From Actinobacteria bacterium IMCC26103 (GTDB taxonomy: Bacteria > Actinomycetota > Actinomycetes > Nanopelagicales > Nanopelagicaceae): a stretch of 64,000 nucleotides of DNA. The DNA is taken from positions 1,054,001 through 1,118,000 of the forward strand of contig CP015604.1 of NCBI GenBank assembly GCA_002284875.1. Reading direction: 5' to 3'. A program made the position numbers and the translations under genes. The notes beneath the pieces were generated by a model. The model worked only from the letters and a program-made list of their open reading frames with translations, did no database searches and was not told the DNA's origin. This document shows, one piece after another, positions 43,666 to 50,734 of the stretch; the stretch's first letter is position 1; every line of letters starts with the position of its first letter.

Positions 43666-44385
43666 TTAGTGAGCGCCAGTACCGAGGTATGCCTCGCGTA
43701 CTGCTGGATCGTTAAGTAGATCAGAAGCCTTAGCTTCCTTAACGACATTTCCGGTCTCGAGAATATAAGCACGGTGGGCGCGTTGTAACGCTTGCTGTGC
43801 ATTCTGTTCAACGAGAAGGATTGTTACGCCAGTCTTATTGATCTCGGTAATGATGCGGAAGATATTGGCGATCATTTGTGGGGCAAGTCCCATAGATGGT
43901 TCATCGAGAAGCAAGACTTTGGGACGCGCCATAAGTGCGCGACCGATCGCAAGCATCTGTTGTTCTCCGCCAGATAACGTTCCGCCAGCTTGCGAGATGC
44001 GCTCTTTCAAACGTGGGAAGAGCGTGTAGACCTTATCTAAATCTTCGGCCATCTCCTTTTTGCGATCATGGCGATGGAACTTTCCCATCTCCAAATTCTC
44101 TAGAACTGTCATACCCGGAAAAATTCCGCGACCTTCGGGGGCTTGTGATAGACCAAGGTCAACGCGCTTGTGGGCTGGAACGCCAGTTATATCTTCACCA
44201 TTGAAGATGATCTGACCGCTAGTTGCGGGGCGAAGACCGGAAATAGTCTTAAGCATCGTGGTCTTACCGGCACCGTTAGCACCGATTAAGGTAACAATTT
44301 CACCTTCGTTTACAACGATTGAGATGCCCTTAATAGCTTCAATCTTGCCGTAGTGAACGTGGAGATCTTTAATTTCAAGACGCAT
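43666..44385 (-). CDS. livF: Branched-chain amino-acid ABC transporter ATPase LivF
   Basis: One of two cytoplasmic ATPases of the Liv importer, 239 residues long. Walker A is GANGAGKTT, the signature LSGGEQQMLAIGRALM and Walker B VLLLDEPSMGLAP. It overlaps livG by 11 bases and has AGGAG upstream. It is the last gene of livK-livH-livM-livG-livF. Confidence 0.95.
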   Translation of the reverse strand: MRLEIKDLHVHYGKIEAIKGISIVVNEGEIVTLIGANGAGKTTMLKTISGLRPATSGQIIFNGEDITGVPAHKRVDLGLSQAPEGRGIFPGMTVLENLEMGKFHRHDRKKEMAEDLDKVYTLFPRLKERISQAGGTLSGGEQQMLAIGRALMARPKVLLLDEPSMGLAPQMIANIFRIITEINKTGVTILLVEQNAQQALQRAHRAYILETGNVVKEAKASDLLNDPAVREAYLGTGAH

Positions 44386-45151
44386 CTGCAGGCACTCCTA
44401 GGTAAGCCTCGATTACGCGAGGGTCGTTTTGTACTACAGCTGGAGAATCATCAGCGATCTTGGTTCCGAAATCTAGAACGGCAACCCGATCTGAAATTCC
44501 CATAATCAACGACATATCGTGCTCGATGAGAAGAACTGTGTATCCAGCATCGCGAACCTTCTTAATAGTTGCGCCAAGTTCAACTTTCTCTTGTGGGTTA
44601 AAGCCGGCTGCTGGTTCATCAAGGAGCAAGAGTTTTGGAGATGTGCCCATTGCGCGCGCAATTTCTAAGCGACGCTGTACTCCATATGGAAGATTCTTTG
44701 CCAGGCGATCTGCGTATTCATCGATTCCGATAAATTGCAGGATCTCATGTGCCTTAGCGCGGTTCTCTTTCTCTTCCCGACGTGCACGAGGTGTACCAAA
44801 AAGTGCACCGACTAGGCCGCTCTTCTTATGTACATCAGTTGCGGTAATAACATTTTCCAGGGTTGTCATATCGCCAAATAAACGAATGTTCTGGAAGGTA
44901 CGAGCAACGCCAAGGCCAGTGATCTGGAAGCGCTTGCGACCTGCCAAGTTGTGGCCATCGAAAGTAACTGAACCAGATGTTGCTTGATAAACACCAGTGA
45001 TCACGTTAAAGACGGTTGTCTTACCGGCGCCGTTAGGGCCGATCAAGGCCAGAATTTCGCCTTCGCGAACTTCTAGGTTCACTTCATTTAGAGCGGTCAC
45101 GCCACCGAATTTCATGGTGAGGTTTTCAAGTTTTAATAGGACCTTTGACAT
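44375..45151 (-). CDS. livG: Branched-chain amino-acid ABC transporter ATPase LivG
   Basis: The second ATPase of the importer, 258 residues. Walker A is GPNGAGKTT. The LivG-type insert VARTFQNIRLFGDMTTLENV follows, and Walker B is LLLLDEPAAGFNP. Instead of LSGGQ the signature region reads NLPYGVQRRLEIARAM, as usual for LivG. One-base overlap with livM (TAATG). Confidence 0.95.
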   Translation of the reverse strand: MSKVLLKLENLTMKFGGVTALNEVNLEVREGEILALIGPNGAGKTTVFNVITGVYQATSGSVTFDGHNLAGRKRFQITGLGVARTFQNIRLFGDMTTLENVITATDVHKKSGLVGALFGTPRARREEKENRAKAHEILQFIGIDEYADRLAKNLPYGVQRRLEIARAMGTSPKLLLLDEPAAGFNPQEKVELGATIKKVRDAGYTVLLIEHDMSLIMGISDRVAVLDFGTKIADDSPAVVQNDPRVIEAYLGVPADAS

Positions 45152-46188
45152 TAGGCGCTTGCTCCTTTCTTAACCAAAGCTTTTTCTCGTTTCTTACGAG
45201 GTAACAAGCCATCTGGACGGAAGTTCATAACTACAACCAATACGAGACCAAAGACCAATAGACGCGCATCAGAGATAAAGCGGATTCGATCTGGTAGATA
45301 ACCCAAGATCGCACCACCAAGAATTACACCCCAGATATTTCCAATTCCACCAAAGACCACACAGGCCAAGATCAGAATCGAAACGTTAAGGGTAAACATC
45401 TCTGGTGAGATAAAGAGGTTCTTAGCTGCATAGAGAACGCCGGCTGCTCCACCAATTGCTGCGCCTAATGTAAATGACCAGATCTTATATTTAAGAGTTG
45501 GAACGCCCATGAGTTCTGCAGCATCTTCATCTTGGCGAATTGCCTCCCAAGCGCGACCTGGGCGGCGCACAGTTAAGCGGCGAATCATCCAGATAGTTAA
45601 CAAGATCATTACTAAAACAACCCAGAAGAAGAGCTTCTGGTCATCTAGTGCAAACTCTTTGCCAAGAATTGGAGGTGGCATCTGAATGCCTGAGATTCCA
45701 TTAGGACCATTTGTCCAAGAAACGTTAAGAGCAACGATACGAATGATTTCACCAAAGCCTAAGGTGACGATCGCTAGATAATCGCCACGCAGACGCAACG
45801 TTGGGATACCGAGTAAGACACCTGCAAACATCGCAGCGCCAATACCAATTGGCATGATCTCCCAGGTATTAAGCCCGGTATGCATGCTTAATAAACCATT
45901 TGTGTAGGCACCGATTGCAAAGAAAGCAACGTAACCTAAGTCGAGCATTCCTGATTTACCGACCACGATATTTAAGCCAAGCGACATCAAAACGAAAATG
46001 GCTACTGGATAAACCAAGACTGCGTCATATGCTGCAACTGGCGTAGCTAAAAATGACGCACCAGCAAATGGCAGCAGCGCTGCGAGAGTAATAGTTACTA
46101 AAACAATTGCCACACGTTGGTAGCGGTTAGAGCGCTCCCAAATACCAGCACCGAAATCGCGAAGGTTAAAGTTCTTCATAATATTCAC
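45151..46188 (-). CDS. livM: Branched-chain amino-acid ABC transporter permease LivM
   Basis: A 345-residue membrane permease with about eight to nine helices and the family stretches LGLNIVVGKSGMLDLGYVAFFAIGAY and GRAWEAIRQDEDAAELMGV (the ATPase-coupling loop). It lies 1 base after livH, with AGGTG before the ATG. Confidence 0.95.
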   Translation of the reverse strand: MNIMKNFNLRDFGAGIWERSNRYQRVAIVLVTITLAALLPFAGASFLATPVAAYDAVLVYPVAIFVLMSLGLNIVVGKSGMLDLGYVAFFAIGAYTNGLLSMHTGLNTWEIMPIGIGAAMFAGVLLGIPTLRLRGDYLAIVTLGFGEIIRIVALNVSWTNGPNGISGIQMPPPILGKEFALDDQKLFFWVVLVMILLTIWMIRRLTVRRPGRAWEAIRQDEDAAELMGVPTLKYKIWSFTLGAAIGGAAGVLYAAKNLFISPEMFTLNVSILILACVVFGGIGNIWGVILGGAILGYLPDRIRFISDARLLVFGLVLVVVMNFRPDGLLPRKKREKALVKKGASA

Positions 46189-46189
46189 C

Positions 46190-47140
46190 TTAAGCCCTTG
46201 TCTGGGTGACGGCTTCTCCGAATAAGCCAGAAGGCTTAAAGAGAAGGACTAATACGAGCACAATAAAGATCGTTACTGATTTCCATTGGGTACCGAGGAT
46301 TGCAGAGGCGTAAACCTCGGCCAAACCCAGGGAGACTCCCCCGAAGAAAGCGCCTCGGATATTGCCGATTCCGCCGATAACGGCTGCAGTAAAGGCGGCA
46401 AGGCCCATAGTGAAACCGATATTAAATTTGGTGTACTCGTAAACAGTTATATAGAAGAATCCGGCCGCACCTGTTGCTAGTCCTCCGACTAAAAAAGTTG
46501 TAGTAATTACGCGGTTTAAGTTAATACCCATCAATTTGGCGGCATCTTCATTCATAGATACTGCGCGAATGGCTTTGCCCATGCGAGATAGCTTTACGAA
46601 GCGCTCGAGAATGATAAAAATCGCGCCTGCTGCCATGATGGTAATTAAAGTATCTAGGCGAATTTGTGCGCCCCAGACTTCAACCAAGATTACCTTTTCA
46701 AGGATTCGGGGTGAACCAACTGGACGTGATGCAGTTAGCAGACGCATGACTTCGGAAAGCACCATTGACATTCCAATTGCAGAGATCAGAGTTGCTAAGC
46801 GGTTTGTACCTTTAGCACGTAAGCGGCGATAGGCGACAAATTCAACGGTGACTGCTGTTAGTCCGGCAAATGCCATTGAGGCAAAGAGTTGAATAAAGAG
46901 AACCAGCGCGAGTTTGGCACCGTGCGCCGGTTCTGAGGTCTGGTTATATCCAAAAAGATCACGGCTGGCGACGATCGCGCCGAATGTTCCCCACATAAAG
47001 ATTTCAGAGTTAGCAAAGTTGATCATACGAAGAACGCCATAAACCATGGTGTACCCCAGTGCGATCAAGACATAGATAAATCCGAGTGCGATACCCGAAA
47101 TCGTCAGTTGCCAGAACTGATCAATAAAGACTGTAAACAT
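46190..47140 (-). CDS. livH: Branched-chain amino-acid ABC transporter permease LivH
   Basis: A 316-residue permease with GFIYVLIALGYTMVYGVLRMINFANSE at the N-terminus and the coupling loop GKAIRAVSMNEDAAKLMGIN. AAAGGGGCGAG lies before the ATG. A 152-base gap with a strong hairpin separates it from livK. Confidence 0.95.
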   Translation of the reverse strand: MFTVFIDQFWQLTISGIALGFIYVLIALGYTMVYGVLRMINFANSEIFMWGTFGAIVASRDLFGYNQTSEPAHGAKLALVLFIQLFASMAFAGLTAVTVEFVAYRRLRAKGTNRLATLISAIGMSMVLSEVMRLLTASRPVGSPRILEKVILVEVWGAQIRLDTLITIMAAGAIFIILERFVKLSRMGKAIRAVSMNEDAAKLMGINLNRVITTTFLVGGLATGAAGFFYITVYEYTKFNIGFTMGLAAFTAAVIGGIGNIRGAFFGGVSLGLAEVYASAILGTQWKSVTIFIVLVLVLLFKPSGLFGEAVTQTRA

Positions 47141-47230
47141 CTCGCCCCTTTAATATGTCGCTGCGGTCACTGCACGGTTTGAATAGATCAAGTCGGTGAA
47201 ATCTACTTTAATTTTGAGTTAATTAAAAGC

Positions 47231-47270
47231 CAACGGGCGAGTTGATTCTTGCGAATCAACTCGCCCGTTG
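47231..47270 (-). terminator. Strong hairpin between livK and livH (partial terminator / mRNA processing signal)
   Basis: A perfect 18-bp stem with a 4-base loop; one arm is CAACGGGCGAGTTGATTC and the other its exact complement. On the minus strand it is followed by GCTTTTAATTAA. It lies 23 bases after the livK stop and about 90 bases before livH. Such intergenic hairpins often let the binding-protein mRNA accumulate above the permease mRNA. The rest of the 152-base gap shows no clear promoter. Confidence 0.85.
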
Positions 47271-47292
47271 GGGTCAAGCAATTACTTCAGAG

Positions 47293-48453
47293 TTAGGCTA
47301 CTGGGCCCTTGTTAACAAGCGTTCCGCCTGTTACTAGGAAGCCAGCAAAGCCACCTTCTGAGATATCGCCATGTTGGTTGAACTTGATGTTCGCACCAGC
47401 AATACCCTTGAAGTTGTAGCTCTTTACCCACTTGTTCATCGCTGCGCGAGTTGTCTTTCCATTCTTGATACCAGAAAGGAAGATATTTGCAGCATCGATC
47501 GATTCAACAGCGTAAACGCCAGATGAAACACCGATCTTTGCCTTGAAGTCAGCTTCGATCTTTGGATCAACATCAGCAAGACCGGCTACGCCAGTTAGCT
47601 TTGCACCTTCGCCAGCCTTACCGGCGAGAACTGCGAACTGCTGGTTGAATACTCCGTCGCCACCAGCGAATGTCGCTGTTGAACCTGAGTCACGAAGTTG
47701 CTTTACGAATACTGCAGCTTGGCTGTAGTAACCGGTGTAGATAACAACGTTTGCGCCAGCTGACTTGATCTTGGCGATTGTTGGGCTGAAGTCTGTTGTT
47801 GTGTTAGGAACTGAATCTCCACCAACAAGAGTTGCACCCTTGACGTTCTTGAGTGCAGCTTCAACATATCCACGTAGTGGAACAGCGTATGAAGACTGGT
47901 CATCGAATACGAAGACCTTTGCAGCAGTGTTTCCTGCTGTTGCAAACTTCGCAAGAGCTGGACCCTGCTTGTCATCAGTTGCTACGACGCGGTGGAAAAT
48001 TGGGCGGCCGTAATCTGACTTAGCTGTTGGGCTCTTTGGATCTGTTAGTGATACGCGAGTTGCAGATGGTGAGATAACTGTGAGGTTACCTGCCTTGTAG
48101 TAAGGAAGTGATGCGATTGTTGCACCTGAGTAAGCAGGACCAATAAGACCGATGATCTTTGTGTTGGTTCCAACTCCTGGAGCTACCTTTGAAGCTACAG
48201 CTGGATCTCCTTCGTCATCTACTGAAACGAGGTTGATCTTGTAACCTGGGTTAGCTGCCTCAAATACCTTGATTGCATACTTAACACCGTTTTGCTCGTC
48301 GATACCTGTTGAGGCTTCTCCACCTGAAAGTGGGCCTTGGTATGCCAGAGTGAATGTCTTTGTTGCAGCTGATGCAGATGTTGTTGCAAATGCGCCAAAT
48401 GAAAGCGCGATTGCGGCAACGATTGCAGCAGAAGCTTTGATCTTCTTGTTCAT
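47293..48453 (-). CDS. livK: Branched-chain amino-acid ABC transporter substrate-binding protein
   Basis: The extracellular binding protein of the importer: 386 residues from MNKKIKASAAIVAAIALSF. The signal peptide ends near TSASA-ATK, followed by a Leu/Ile/Val-binding fold (LAYQGPLSGGEASTG, GPAYSGATIASLPYY, IYTGYYSQAAVFVKQL). The whole protein has no cysteine, so there is no lipobox and no lipid anchor. AGGAAGG precedes the ATG. A longer frame to 48534 would span the promoter and is rejected. Ligand choice within amino acids or amides cannot be fixed by sequence alone. Confidence 0.92.
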   Translation of the reverse strand: MNKKIKASAAIVAAIALSFGAFATTSASAATKTFTLAYQGPLSGGEASTGIDEQNGVKYAIKVFEAANPGYKINLVSVDDEGDPAVASKVAPGVGTNTKIIGLIGPAYSGATIASLPYYKAGNLTVISPSATRVSLTDPKSPTAKSDYGRPIFHRVVATDDKQGPALAKFATAGNTAAKVFVFDDQSSYAVPLRGYVEAALKNVKGATLVGGDSVPNTTTDFSPTIAKIKSAGANVVIYTGYYSQAAVFVKQLRDSGSTATFAGGDGVFNQQFAVLAGKAGEGAKLTGVAGLADVDPKIEADFKAKIGVSSGVYAVESIDAANIFLSGIKNGKTTRAAMNKWVKSYNFKGIAGANIKFNQHGDISEGGFAGFLVTGGTLVNKGPVA

Positions 48454-48481
48454 GTATTGCCTTCCTGTTTTTTCTTGCATG

Positions 48482-48493
48482 TGTCCCGGGACA
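48482..48493. promoter_or_regulatory. Perfect palindrome in the livK leader
   Basis: TGTCCCGGGACA is a perfect 12-base palindrome about 30 bases upstream of the livK ATG and just downstream of the predicted transcription start, a position suited to a repressor or a small RNA hairpin. No regulator is identified. Confidence 0.35.
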
Positions 48494-48504
48494 GGGAGGC
48501 TGAA

Positions 48505-48534
48505 AGTGTAAAGGCAGGCGTAAGGATCTATCAA
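48505..48534 (-). promoter_or_regulatory. livK promoter
   Basis: On the minus strand TTGATA (48534-48529), an 18-base spacer and TACACT (48510-48505) form a good housekeeping-type promoter. The leader would be about 45 bases and carries an AGGAAGG ribosome-binding site. This contrasts with the leaderless starts common elsewhere in the window. Confidence 0.6.
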
Positions 48535-48603: not shown

Positions 48604-49206
48604 TTACCTACCAGGAACGGCATCTGGGGAGATAACGGCTTGGGCGACCTCTTTCATAGTTAAACGACGATCCATAGCCGCCCTTTGAATCCAAGAAAAT
48701 GCTTCGGGTTCGGCCAAATTTAAGGCCTGCATCAAAATACCTTTGGCACGATCAATTAACTTTCGAGTTTCTAGCCTTTCATGTAAATCTGCGACTTCGT
48801 CTGCAAGGGTTCGCATCTGTAAATGTCGGCTGATTGCGATTTCAATTGCCGGAACAAGATCACCAATGGAAAAAGGTTTAACGACATATGCCATAACGCC
48901 GGCATCACGAGCACGTTCAACGAGTTCGCGCTGTGAAAAAGCGGTCAGCATTAAAACTGGCGCGATAGAGATTATTTTCTCGGCGGCAGATATGCCATCT
49001 AGTACCGGCATCTTCACATCAAGAATTGCTAAATCAGGTTTATGTAGCTGTGCTAGCTCAATTGCTTGTGCGCCATCGGCTGCTTCAGCCACAACTTCGT
49101 AGCCCGCTTCTACCAACATCTCGACTAGATCCATACGGATTAGCGCTTCATCTTCGGCAACTAGAATTTTGATACGTGTTTCAGCGCCATCGCTATTTGT
49201 ATTCAT
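48604..49206 (-). CDS. pdtaR: ANTAR-domain RNA-binding response regulator (PdtaR-like)
   Basis: A two-domain regulator of 200 residues. The receiver domain has the acidic pocket VAEDEALIRMD, the phosphorylation site in AILDVKMPVLDG, and the conserved lysine in VVKPF. The C-terminal ANTAR domain (LIDRAKGILMQALNLAEPEAFSWIQRAAMDRRLTMKEVAQAV) binds RNA hairpin pairs to prevent transcription termination. Mycobacterial PdtaR works with the kinase PdtaS, not seen here. Its ATG begins one base after the 3' end of the upstream tRNA, leaving no room for a normal leader. Confidence 0.92.
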   Translation of the reverse strand: MNTNSDGAETRIKILVAEDEALIRMDLVEMLVEAGYEVVAEAADGAQAIELAQLHKPDLAILDVKMPVLDGISAAEKIISIAPVLMLTAFSQRELVERARDAGVMAYVVKPFSIGDLVPAIEIAISRHLQMRTLADEVADLHERLETRKLIDRAKGILMQALNLAEPEAFSWIQRAAMDRRLTMKEVAQAVISPDAVPGR

Positions 49207-49207
49207 G

Positions 49208-49280
49208 TGCCTCGAGTCGGATTCGAACCGACACTATGCAGTGTTTGAGACTGCCCTCTCTACCGTTGGAGTACCGAGGC
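49208..49280 (-). tRNA. tRNA with Leu-type anticodon CAA but a short (class I) variable loop
   Basis: A full cloverleaf of 73 bases. The acceptor arms are GCCTCGG and TCGAGGC (one G-T pair) with discriminator A. U8, A14, GG in the D-loop and a TTCGAAT T-loop are all present. The anticodon stem GCAGT/ACTGC encloses the loop CTCAAAC, so the anticodon is CAA and it should read UUG (Leu). The variable region is only ATAGT, whereas bacterial tRNA-Leu normally has a long variable arm. CCA is not encoded. It lies 14 bases after pyk and 1 base before pdtaR, on the same strand. Confidence 0.88.
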
Positions 49281-49294
49281 TTAGAAGGCAAATC

Positions 49295-50734
49295 TTAACG
49301 GTATGCAGGGGCTGCGCCACCCACGGCATCGCCCACACGGTGTACGCGCATCGCATTGGTTGAGCCTGGAATTCCGGGTGGAGATCCTGCGACGATTACA
49401 ACTAATTCGCCTTCTTTGCAACGCCCAGATTTAAGTAACAAGGTATCTGCTTGCATCACCATCTCATCAGTGTGCTTAACCATTGGAGTTAATTCTGGTT
49501 CTACTCCCCAATCCAGCGCCATTCTGTTGTAGGTGCCAACTTCTGGAGTAAATGCCAAGATCGGAATCGGCGAACGCAAACGCGCAGTACGTCGCGCAGA
49601 ATCACCAGATTGAGTAAAGGTAACTAAATACTTAGCCCCAACAATTGCACCAACCTCAGTAGCAGCCTTTGTGATCGCCCCACCTTTTGTCTTGGGCGAT
49701 GATTTCATGGGGCGGATCATTTCCATTCCGCCTTGTTCGGTATGAGAAATGATGCGCGCCATAGTTTGAACTGCTTCAATGGCAAATTCACCTACGGATG
49801 TCTCGCCAGATAACATCAGAGCATCTGCGCCATCTAGTACCGCATTTGCACAATCTGTTGCTTCAGCGCGAGTTGGACGAGAATTAGTAATCATTGAATC
49901 GAGCATCTGGGTTGCAACGATCACCGGTTTAGCAGCTTCACGGGCTAGTTCGATGCAATGCTTTTGAACTAGCGGAACTTCTTCAATCGGAAGCTCTACT
50001 CCGAGGTCACCGCGCGCCACCATAATGCCATCGAAGGCGTTAACGATTCCTTGCAAATTTTCAACTGCTTGTGGCTTTTCAATCTTGGCAATTACTGGGA
50101 TGCGAATTCCAACTTCATCCATAATGCGGTGGACATCGACGATGTCATCGGCGCTCCGGACGAATGAGAGCGCAATGAAATCTGCGCCGGCCTTTAGCCC
50201 CCAACGAAGATCATCCATATCTTTCTCAGATAAAGCCGGAACTGAGACGGCAACGCCCGGCAAGTTAATGCCTTTATTGTTACTGACCGCGCCAGGTTCA
50301 ATTACCTTTGTGACGACATCGTTACCTTTTACTTCCACAACCTCAACGGTGACCTTGCCATCATCGATCAAGATGCGATCGCCGGGCTTGCAATCTCCTG
50401 GTAGACCTTTATATGTAGTGCCGACGCGTTCTTTAGTTCCTTCAACATCATCAGTAGTAATAGTAAAGATATCTCCACGAGATAAATCATGAGGACCGGC
50501 TTTAAAGCGAGCTAAACGAATCTTTGGACCTTGAAGATCGACCAAGATCGCAACTGGAACGCCAGCTTCTTTCGCTGCCTCACGCACGCGATCTAAACGT
50601 GTCTGATGTTCTGGATAGCCTCCATGTGACAAGTTAAGGCGCGCCATATTCATACCAGCTGCGATTAGCTCACGAACTTTCTCGGGAGATTCAACGGCTG
50701 GACCCATTGTGCAAACAATCTTGGCGCGACGCAT
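49295..50734 (-). CDS. pyk: Pyruvate kinase
   Basis: It converts phosphoenolpyruvate and ADP to pyruvate and ATP. The 479 residues show AKIVCTMGPAVESPEKVRELIAAGMNMARLNLSHG at the N-terminus, the catalytic region VIAKIEKPQAVENLQGI and MVARGDLGVELPIEEVPLVQK, ATQMLDSMI, and the C-terminal regulatory domain. TAAGGT lies 6 bases before the ATG, which may also act as a weak Shine-Dalgarno. The tRNA and pdtaR follow on the same strand and are probably in the same transcript. Confidence 0.97.
   Translation of the reverse strand: MRRAKIVCTMGPAVESPEKVRELIAAGMNMARLNLSHGGYPEHQTRLDRVREAAKEAGVPVAILVDLQGPKIRLARFKAGPHDLSRGDIFTITTDDVEGTKERVGTTYKGLPGDCKPGDRILIDDGKVTVEVVEVKGNDVVTKVIEPGAVSNNKGINLPGVAVSVPALSEKDMDDLRWGLKAGADFIALSFVRSADDIVDVHRIMDEVGIRIPVIAKIEKPQAVENLQGIVNAFDGIMVARGDLGVELPIEEVPLVQKHCIELAREAAKPVIVATQMLDSMITNSRPTRAEATDCANAVLDGADALMLSGETSVGEFAIEAVQTMARIISHTEQGGMEMIRPMKSSPKTKGGAITKAATEVGAIVGAKYLVTFTQSGDSARRTARLRSPIPILAFTPEVGTYNRMALDWGVEPELTPMVKHTDEMVMQADTLLLKSGRCKEGELVVIVAGSPPGIPGSTNAMRVHRVGDAVGGAAPAYR

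Follow-up and report, generated by a model that had tools for sequence, protein, structure and literature searches.

Introduction

Which amino acid is carried by a tRNA that joins a leucine anticodon to a body lacking the long variable arm? The question is posed by a gene at 49208-49280 in a stretch of 64,000 nucleotides (hereafter the window) from the freshwater Actinobacteria bacterium IMCC26103. An earlier sequence-only reading, which left the gene's minus-strand orientation unstated, took bacterial tRNA-Leu to be always type II and offered three options: that a type I tRNA-Leu for UUG is acceptable to LeuRS here, that the tRNA carries an amino acid other than leucine, or that its role is non-decoding. 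A 2023 review describes the long arm of tRNA-Leu as present everywhere except in animal mitochondria (PMC9976931). An older survey includes some tRNA-Leu with short arms in its set (PMC2474678), M. tuberculosis tRNA-Leu-2, -3 and -5 have been named in passing as long-loop (PMC11541572), and a short-loop tRNA-Leu(UAG), also mentioned in passing, belongs to a mycobacterial tRNA cluster (PMC6582537). The last is a short-loop bacterial tRNA-Leu in print, but unlike the present gene it supplements a normal type II isoacceptor as an accessory copy and is not a sole UUR reader (PMC6582537). A search for a paper presenting type I tRNA-Leu as what ordinarily reads UUR in any group of bacteria, with most subscription journals outside its range, found none. 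Even if the data on short-armed tRNA-Leu are already public, the pattern that they form has possibly gone undiscussed.

A leucine tRNA with a short variable loop

The gene is 73 nucleotides long, without an encoded CCA, and lies between pyk (pyruvate kinase; 49295-50734, minus strand, Pfam PF00224/PF02887), whose stop codon ends 14 nucleotides upstream of it, and an open reading frame for a pdtaR-like ANTAR response regulator (48604-49206, minus strand, Pfam PF00072 and PF03861), whose ATG begins one base after A73. ARAGORN reports a minus-strand tRNA-Leu(caa) at 49207-49280, and the covariance-model check that the sequence-only reading had proposed is likewise positive, with Rfam RF00005 accepting the gene over its full length (49280-49208; 54.2 bits against a gathering score of 29, E 7e-9). 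The RNA folds into a cloverleaf at -24.9 kcal/mol (z -1.95), in which the D arm is part of the minimum free energy fold and missing from the centroid.

Parsing bears out the parts that had been read by eye. The anticodon CAA (49245-49247), which reads UUG, sits in the loop CTCAAAC, and U8, A14, G18G19 and the A15-U48 pair are all in place. The variable loop, AUAGU (49233-49237), ends in U48 and occupies the place of the long arm; at just five nucleotides it falls within the 4-5 nucleotides of a type I tRNA and short of the arm of at least 10 nucleotides that defines type II. The discriminator A73 (49208), previously noted as fitting leucine, is indeed the main LeuRS determinant and part of the leucine identity set (PMC9976931). 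The D arm region (positions 10-26; 49255-49271) has the 3-bp stem of the leucine type, A14-A15, G18G19, A20a and a C13·A22 mismatch, and the bacterial leucine identity elements A73, A15-U48, G18G19 and A20a are thus all present. Judged from its bases, the gene at 49280-49208 combines the core of a leucine tRNA with the variable loop of type I. A sequencing or assembly error that deleted an arm, a circumstance anticipated in the sequence-only reading, is excluded because the identical gene (74/74) occurs in independent genomes, namely the Planktophila versatilis isolate (L075) and MAGs including L074, the nearest one; this identity also places the lineage in Nanopelagicales.

Distribution and origin of the two forms in Actinomycetota

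A comparison of the locus across actinobacteria, also recommended beforehand, was made by collecting 80 named loci through homologues of the response regulator. A tRNA-Leu(CAA) stands beside the regulator in 79 of them, as type I in 50 and type II in 29. The assumption that tRNA-Leu is type II in every bacterium breaks down in Actinomycetota. Type I occupies the site in Nanopelagicales, Mycobacterium, Rhodococcus, Amycolatopsis, Micromonospora, Cellulomonas and many Streptomyces, and type II in Arthrobacter relatives, Microbacteriaceae, Propionibacteriaceae and other Streptomyces, both forms thus occurring at the same site within the genus Streptomyces. On a quick pdtaR+pyk tree built with no bootstraps, at least 11 switches between the forms are required, eight of them forced by well-supported branches alone.

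Beyond this site, a strict signature pattern identified type I UUR tRNAs in at least 56 of 297 sampled Actinomycetota genomes, including 20 of 35 from the class to which the present genome belongs, a lower bound given that variant T loops, such as those of this genome's own UAA genes, escape the pattern. The reversed control pattern matched none of the 297, and ARAGORN reads 28 of 30 fetched matches as tRNA-Leu. With CUN anticodons the pattern is found in 2/297 genomes. Type I tRNA-Leu(UAG) is present in two of these 297 actinobacterial genomes (L344, L345); all its other occurrences in this analysis were in phages or a plasmid array.

The 60 distinct bacterial type I tRNA-Leu, all from Actinomycetota, share without exception U8, A14, A73, the C13·A22 mismatch, a variable loop of five nucleotides and a D stem with all 3 bp paired. 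Their Levitt pair 15-48 is A-U in 52 and G-C in eight, a compensatory covariation; with eight of 60 type I tRNAs carrying G15-C48, A15-U48 is not an absolute element. The G15-C48 genes include the tRNA-Leu(CAA) of L082, L083, L092, L093 and other Streptomyces loci; in them, both bases of a pair that belongs to the E. coli leucine identity set have changed naturally. Among 39 type II tRNA-Leu(CAA) the core is common with type I except for G13·A22. Those at the same pdtaR locus (Arthrobacter, Microbacteriaceae, some Streptomyces) share anticodon, A73, A14, A15-U48 and the 3-bp D stem with N13·A22, but differ from the present gene in a variable arm of 12-16 nucleotides and in G13·A22 in place of C13·A22.

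How two forms came to share one site admits of more than one explanation. Each lineage might simply have lost the arm of a type II tRNA-Leu by deletion, as the presence of both forms with the same anticodon at the same locus would allow, but the stems fit this less well. Sister genomes with differing forms share 41-65% of 34 stem bases, whereas the average among type I tRNAs of all families is 71%, which makes replacement by an existing type I gene likelier than arm deletion; the D arm differs as well (C13·A22 versus G13·A22). We regard arm deletion as improbable and gene replacement as the likelier origin.

LeuRS subtype was considered as a cause of tRNA form and is unsupported, as one LeuRS family serves both forms; in genus g16, for example, G009 and G051 have type I and G073 type II with the same LeuRS family. 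Actinobacterial LeuRS sequences (L310-L336) do come in two forms, a shorter one including that of the present genome (826 aa frame) and a longer one in Streptomyces and mycobacteria that matches only in pieces, and this split does not track tRNA form.

Phages, plasmids and other replicons

Type I tRNA-Leu is common among phages too, and phages of several hosts encode it. The signature pattern finds at least 80 loci on viral contigs, and all among the matches listed hold type I tRNA-Leu. Named examples are Streptomyces phage Alone3, Prochlorococcus phage P-SSM7 and Felixounavirus RPN213, and the phage records annotate these genes as tRNA-Leu. Across Streptomyces phages, the cyanophages P-SSM7 and S-CREM1, and Felixounavirus, the genes resemble the bacterial ones in the five-nucleotide loop, A73 and, in nearly all, C13·A22; they differ in that UAG, GAG and AAG anticodons also occur and that they are accessory copies, not the host's sole reader. 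Felixounavirus RPN213 (L073), an enterobacterial phage, has three tRNA-Leu genes of type I (UAG, CAA and UAA), although the tRNA-Leu of its enterobacterial host are type II. A Felix-type CAA query of E. coli chromosomes gave no match. One type I tRNA-Leu lies in a Calothrix plasmid tRNA array, and a candidate on a Thermomicrobium plasmid was rejected as a tRNA-Lys.

Leucine decoding in this genome

The genome is a single contig of 1,456,516 bp, whose tRNA set was established by an Rfam search of the whole genome, which yielded 38 tRNAs, by ARAGORN on the matches and by two pattern searches. At the places found by Rfam, ARAGORN identifies one CAA and two UAA genes as UUR readers, all type I (both tRNA-Leu(UAA) with the variable loop CCAGU), and one GAG and one UAG gene as CUN readers, both type II. 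No normal class II tRNA-Leu(CAA) emerged from any of these searches, and the gene at 49208-49280 is the only CAA gene found in the contig. The two pattern searches, for a CAA or UAA anticodon followed by a long variable region such as a hidden type II UUR gene would have, returned four places, none of them a tRNA by ARAGORN. UUA and UUG thus appear to be decoded by type I tRNAs only. The genome encodes one LeuRS, of the bacterial family; weaker matches to the LeuRS search in other long frames are presumably related class I synthetases.

These codons are in regular use, TTA and TTG making up 128 of 391 leucine codons in nine genes of the window. Their meaning was read from three genes (pdtaR, pyk and LeuRS) aligned with homologues of other actinobacteria, by recording the residue at each conserved column. 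TTA codons on such columns coincide with leucine in 22 of 24 cases and TTG codons in 15 of 16, and CTN codons behave in the same way; the codons read by tRNA-Leu(CAA) evidently mean leucine here. Given that TTA and TTG fall on conserved leucine columns, UUR reassignment is rejected on the alignments, and the type I UUR tRNAs must, by the same evidence, carry leucine.

Could the gene nevertheless be a pseudogene or a non-decoding RNA, for instance a regulatory RNA or a donor for non-ribosomal aminoacyl transfer? The UAA tRNAs could wobble-read UUG, which in principle makes the CAA gene a spare, but the cloverleaf, the T loop and the 15-48 covariation are kept across the phylum, a tRNA-Leu(CAA) is retained at this site in 79 of 80 named loci, and no second CAA gene was found in the one-contig genome; a purely non-decoding role is accordingly very unlikely. 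Least probable of all is that the tRNA bears an amino acid other than leucine, UUG being reassigned or mistranslated, for although absence of the long arm is normally read as a sign of the wrong isotype (PMC8450103) and identity to the genome's own Leu(UAA) (70%) is only slightly higher than to Phe (68%), this is contradicted by TTG and TTA on conserved leucine columns, by the combination of A15-U48, N13·A22 and A73, which occurs in no non-leucine tRNA of the genome, and by the UAA genes, which share the type I form and are the sole possible readers of UUA.

The remaining option, acceptance of a type I tRNA-Leu for UUG by LeuRS, is strongly supported by the failure to find a type II UUR gene, by the single LeuRS, by UUR codons on conserved leucine columns and by retention of the LeuRS identity core. 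We conclude that tRNA-Leu(CAA) is very probably a working UUG leucine tRNA without a long arm, charged by the sole LeuRS through A73 and the core.

Proposed recognition by LeuRS

Charging by LeuRS is strongly indicated because the genome yielded no other reader of UUA; transcription, processing and charging of the tRNA, together with its rejection by SerRS, are what we infer from sequence comparison. In the proposed mechanism, the sole LeuRS would charge the CAA tRNA, the two type I tRNA-Leu(UAA) and the two type II CUN-reading tRNA-Leu by reading A73 and the elbow or core, not the variable arm. The features read would be the A15-U48 Levitt pair, A14, G18G19, A20a and the 3-bp D stem with N13·A22, of which position 13-22 is paired in nearly all other tRNAs of the genome. 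Loss of the arm should also remove a feature required by SerRS, and the tRNA would thereby stay leucine-specific. The E. coli enzyme provides a precedent: its LeuRS needs A73, A15-U48, G18G19 and A20a but not the long arm, whose sequence and fold are uncorrelated with leucylation, and armless tRNA-Leu variants remain active (PMC9976931). The identity rules applied here are those of E. coli, and actinobacterial LeuRS may differ. Animal mitochondrial tRNA-Leu(UUR) is likewise a UUR leucine tRNA without a long arm, leucylated through A73 and A14 (PMC9976931), but it is organellar, has its own mitochondrial LeuRS and a weakened cloverleaf, whereas the bacterial type I tRNA has a full canonical cloverleaf.

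Implications

On balance, we somewhat favor the broader view that in Actinomycetota the two tRNA structural classes behave as interchangeable alleles of one leucine isoacceptor, with an old type I lineage that comprises largely UUR readers in cells, is shared with phages, has been exchanged with type II at least eight times at one site and in some genomes is the sole UUR reader. The generalization that the long arm is universal outside animal mitochondria (PMC9976931) needs correcting. A phylum-scale exception that includes sole UUR readers offers a natural parallel to the E. coli tRNA-Leu mutants suggesting that LeuRS needs no arm, and natural pairs of type I and type II tRNAs provide material for experiments on how type II tRNAs are apportioned between LeuRS and SerRS. 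More broadly, the findings are relevant to annotation, to the design of leucine tRNAs and to the enzymology of actinobacterial LeuRS.

Genomic neighborhood

A promoter and terminator scan around the tRNA locus remained at chance level. The junction between tRNA and regulator at 49204-49215 reads GGCAC followed directly by ATG, and six of eight Nanopelagicales loci likewise have an in-frame start after a single intervening base. Processing of the tRNA 3' end would, on this arrangement, release a leaderless mRNA for the ANTAR regulator. The tRNA and regulator genes are divergently oriented in Streptomyces and mycobacteria. Finally, the tRNA-Leu and regulator genes are followed on the same strand by five genes (43666-48534) for two ATPases, two permeases and a binding protein, read as a predicted branched-chain amino acid ABC transporter.
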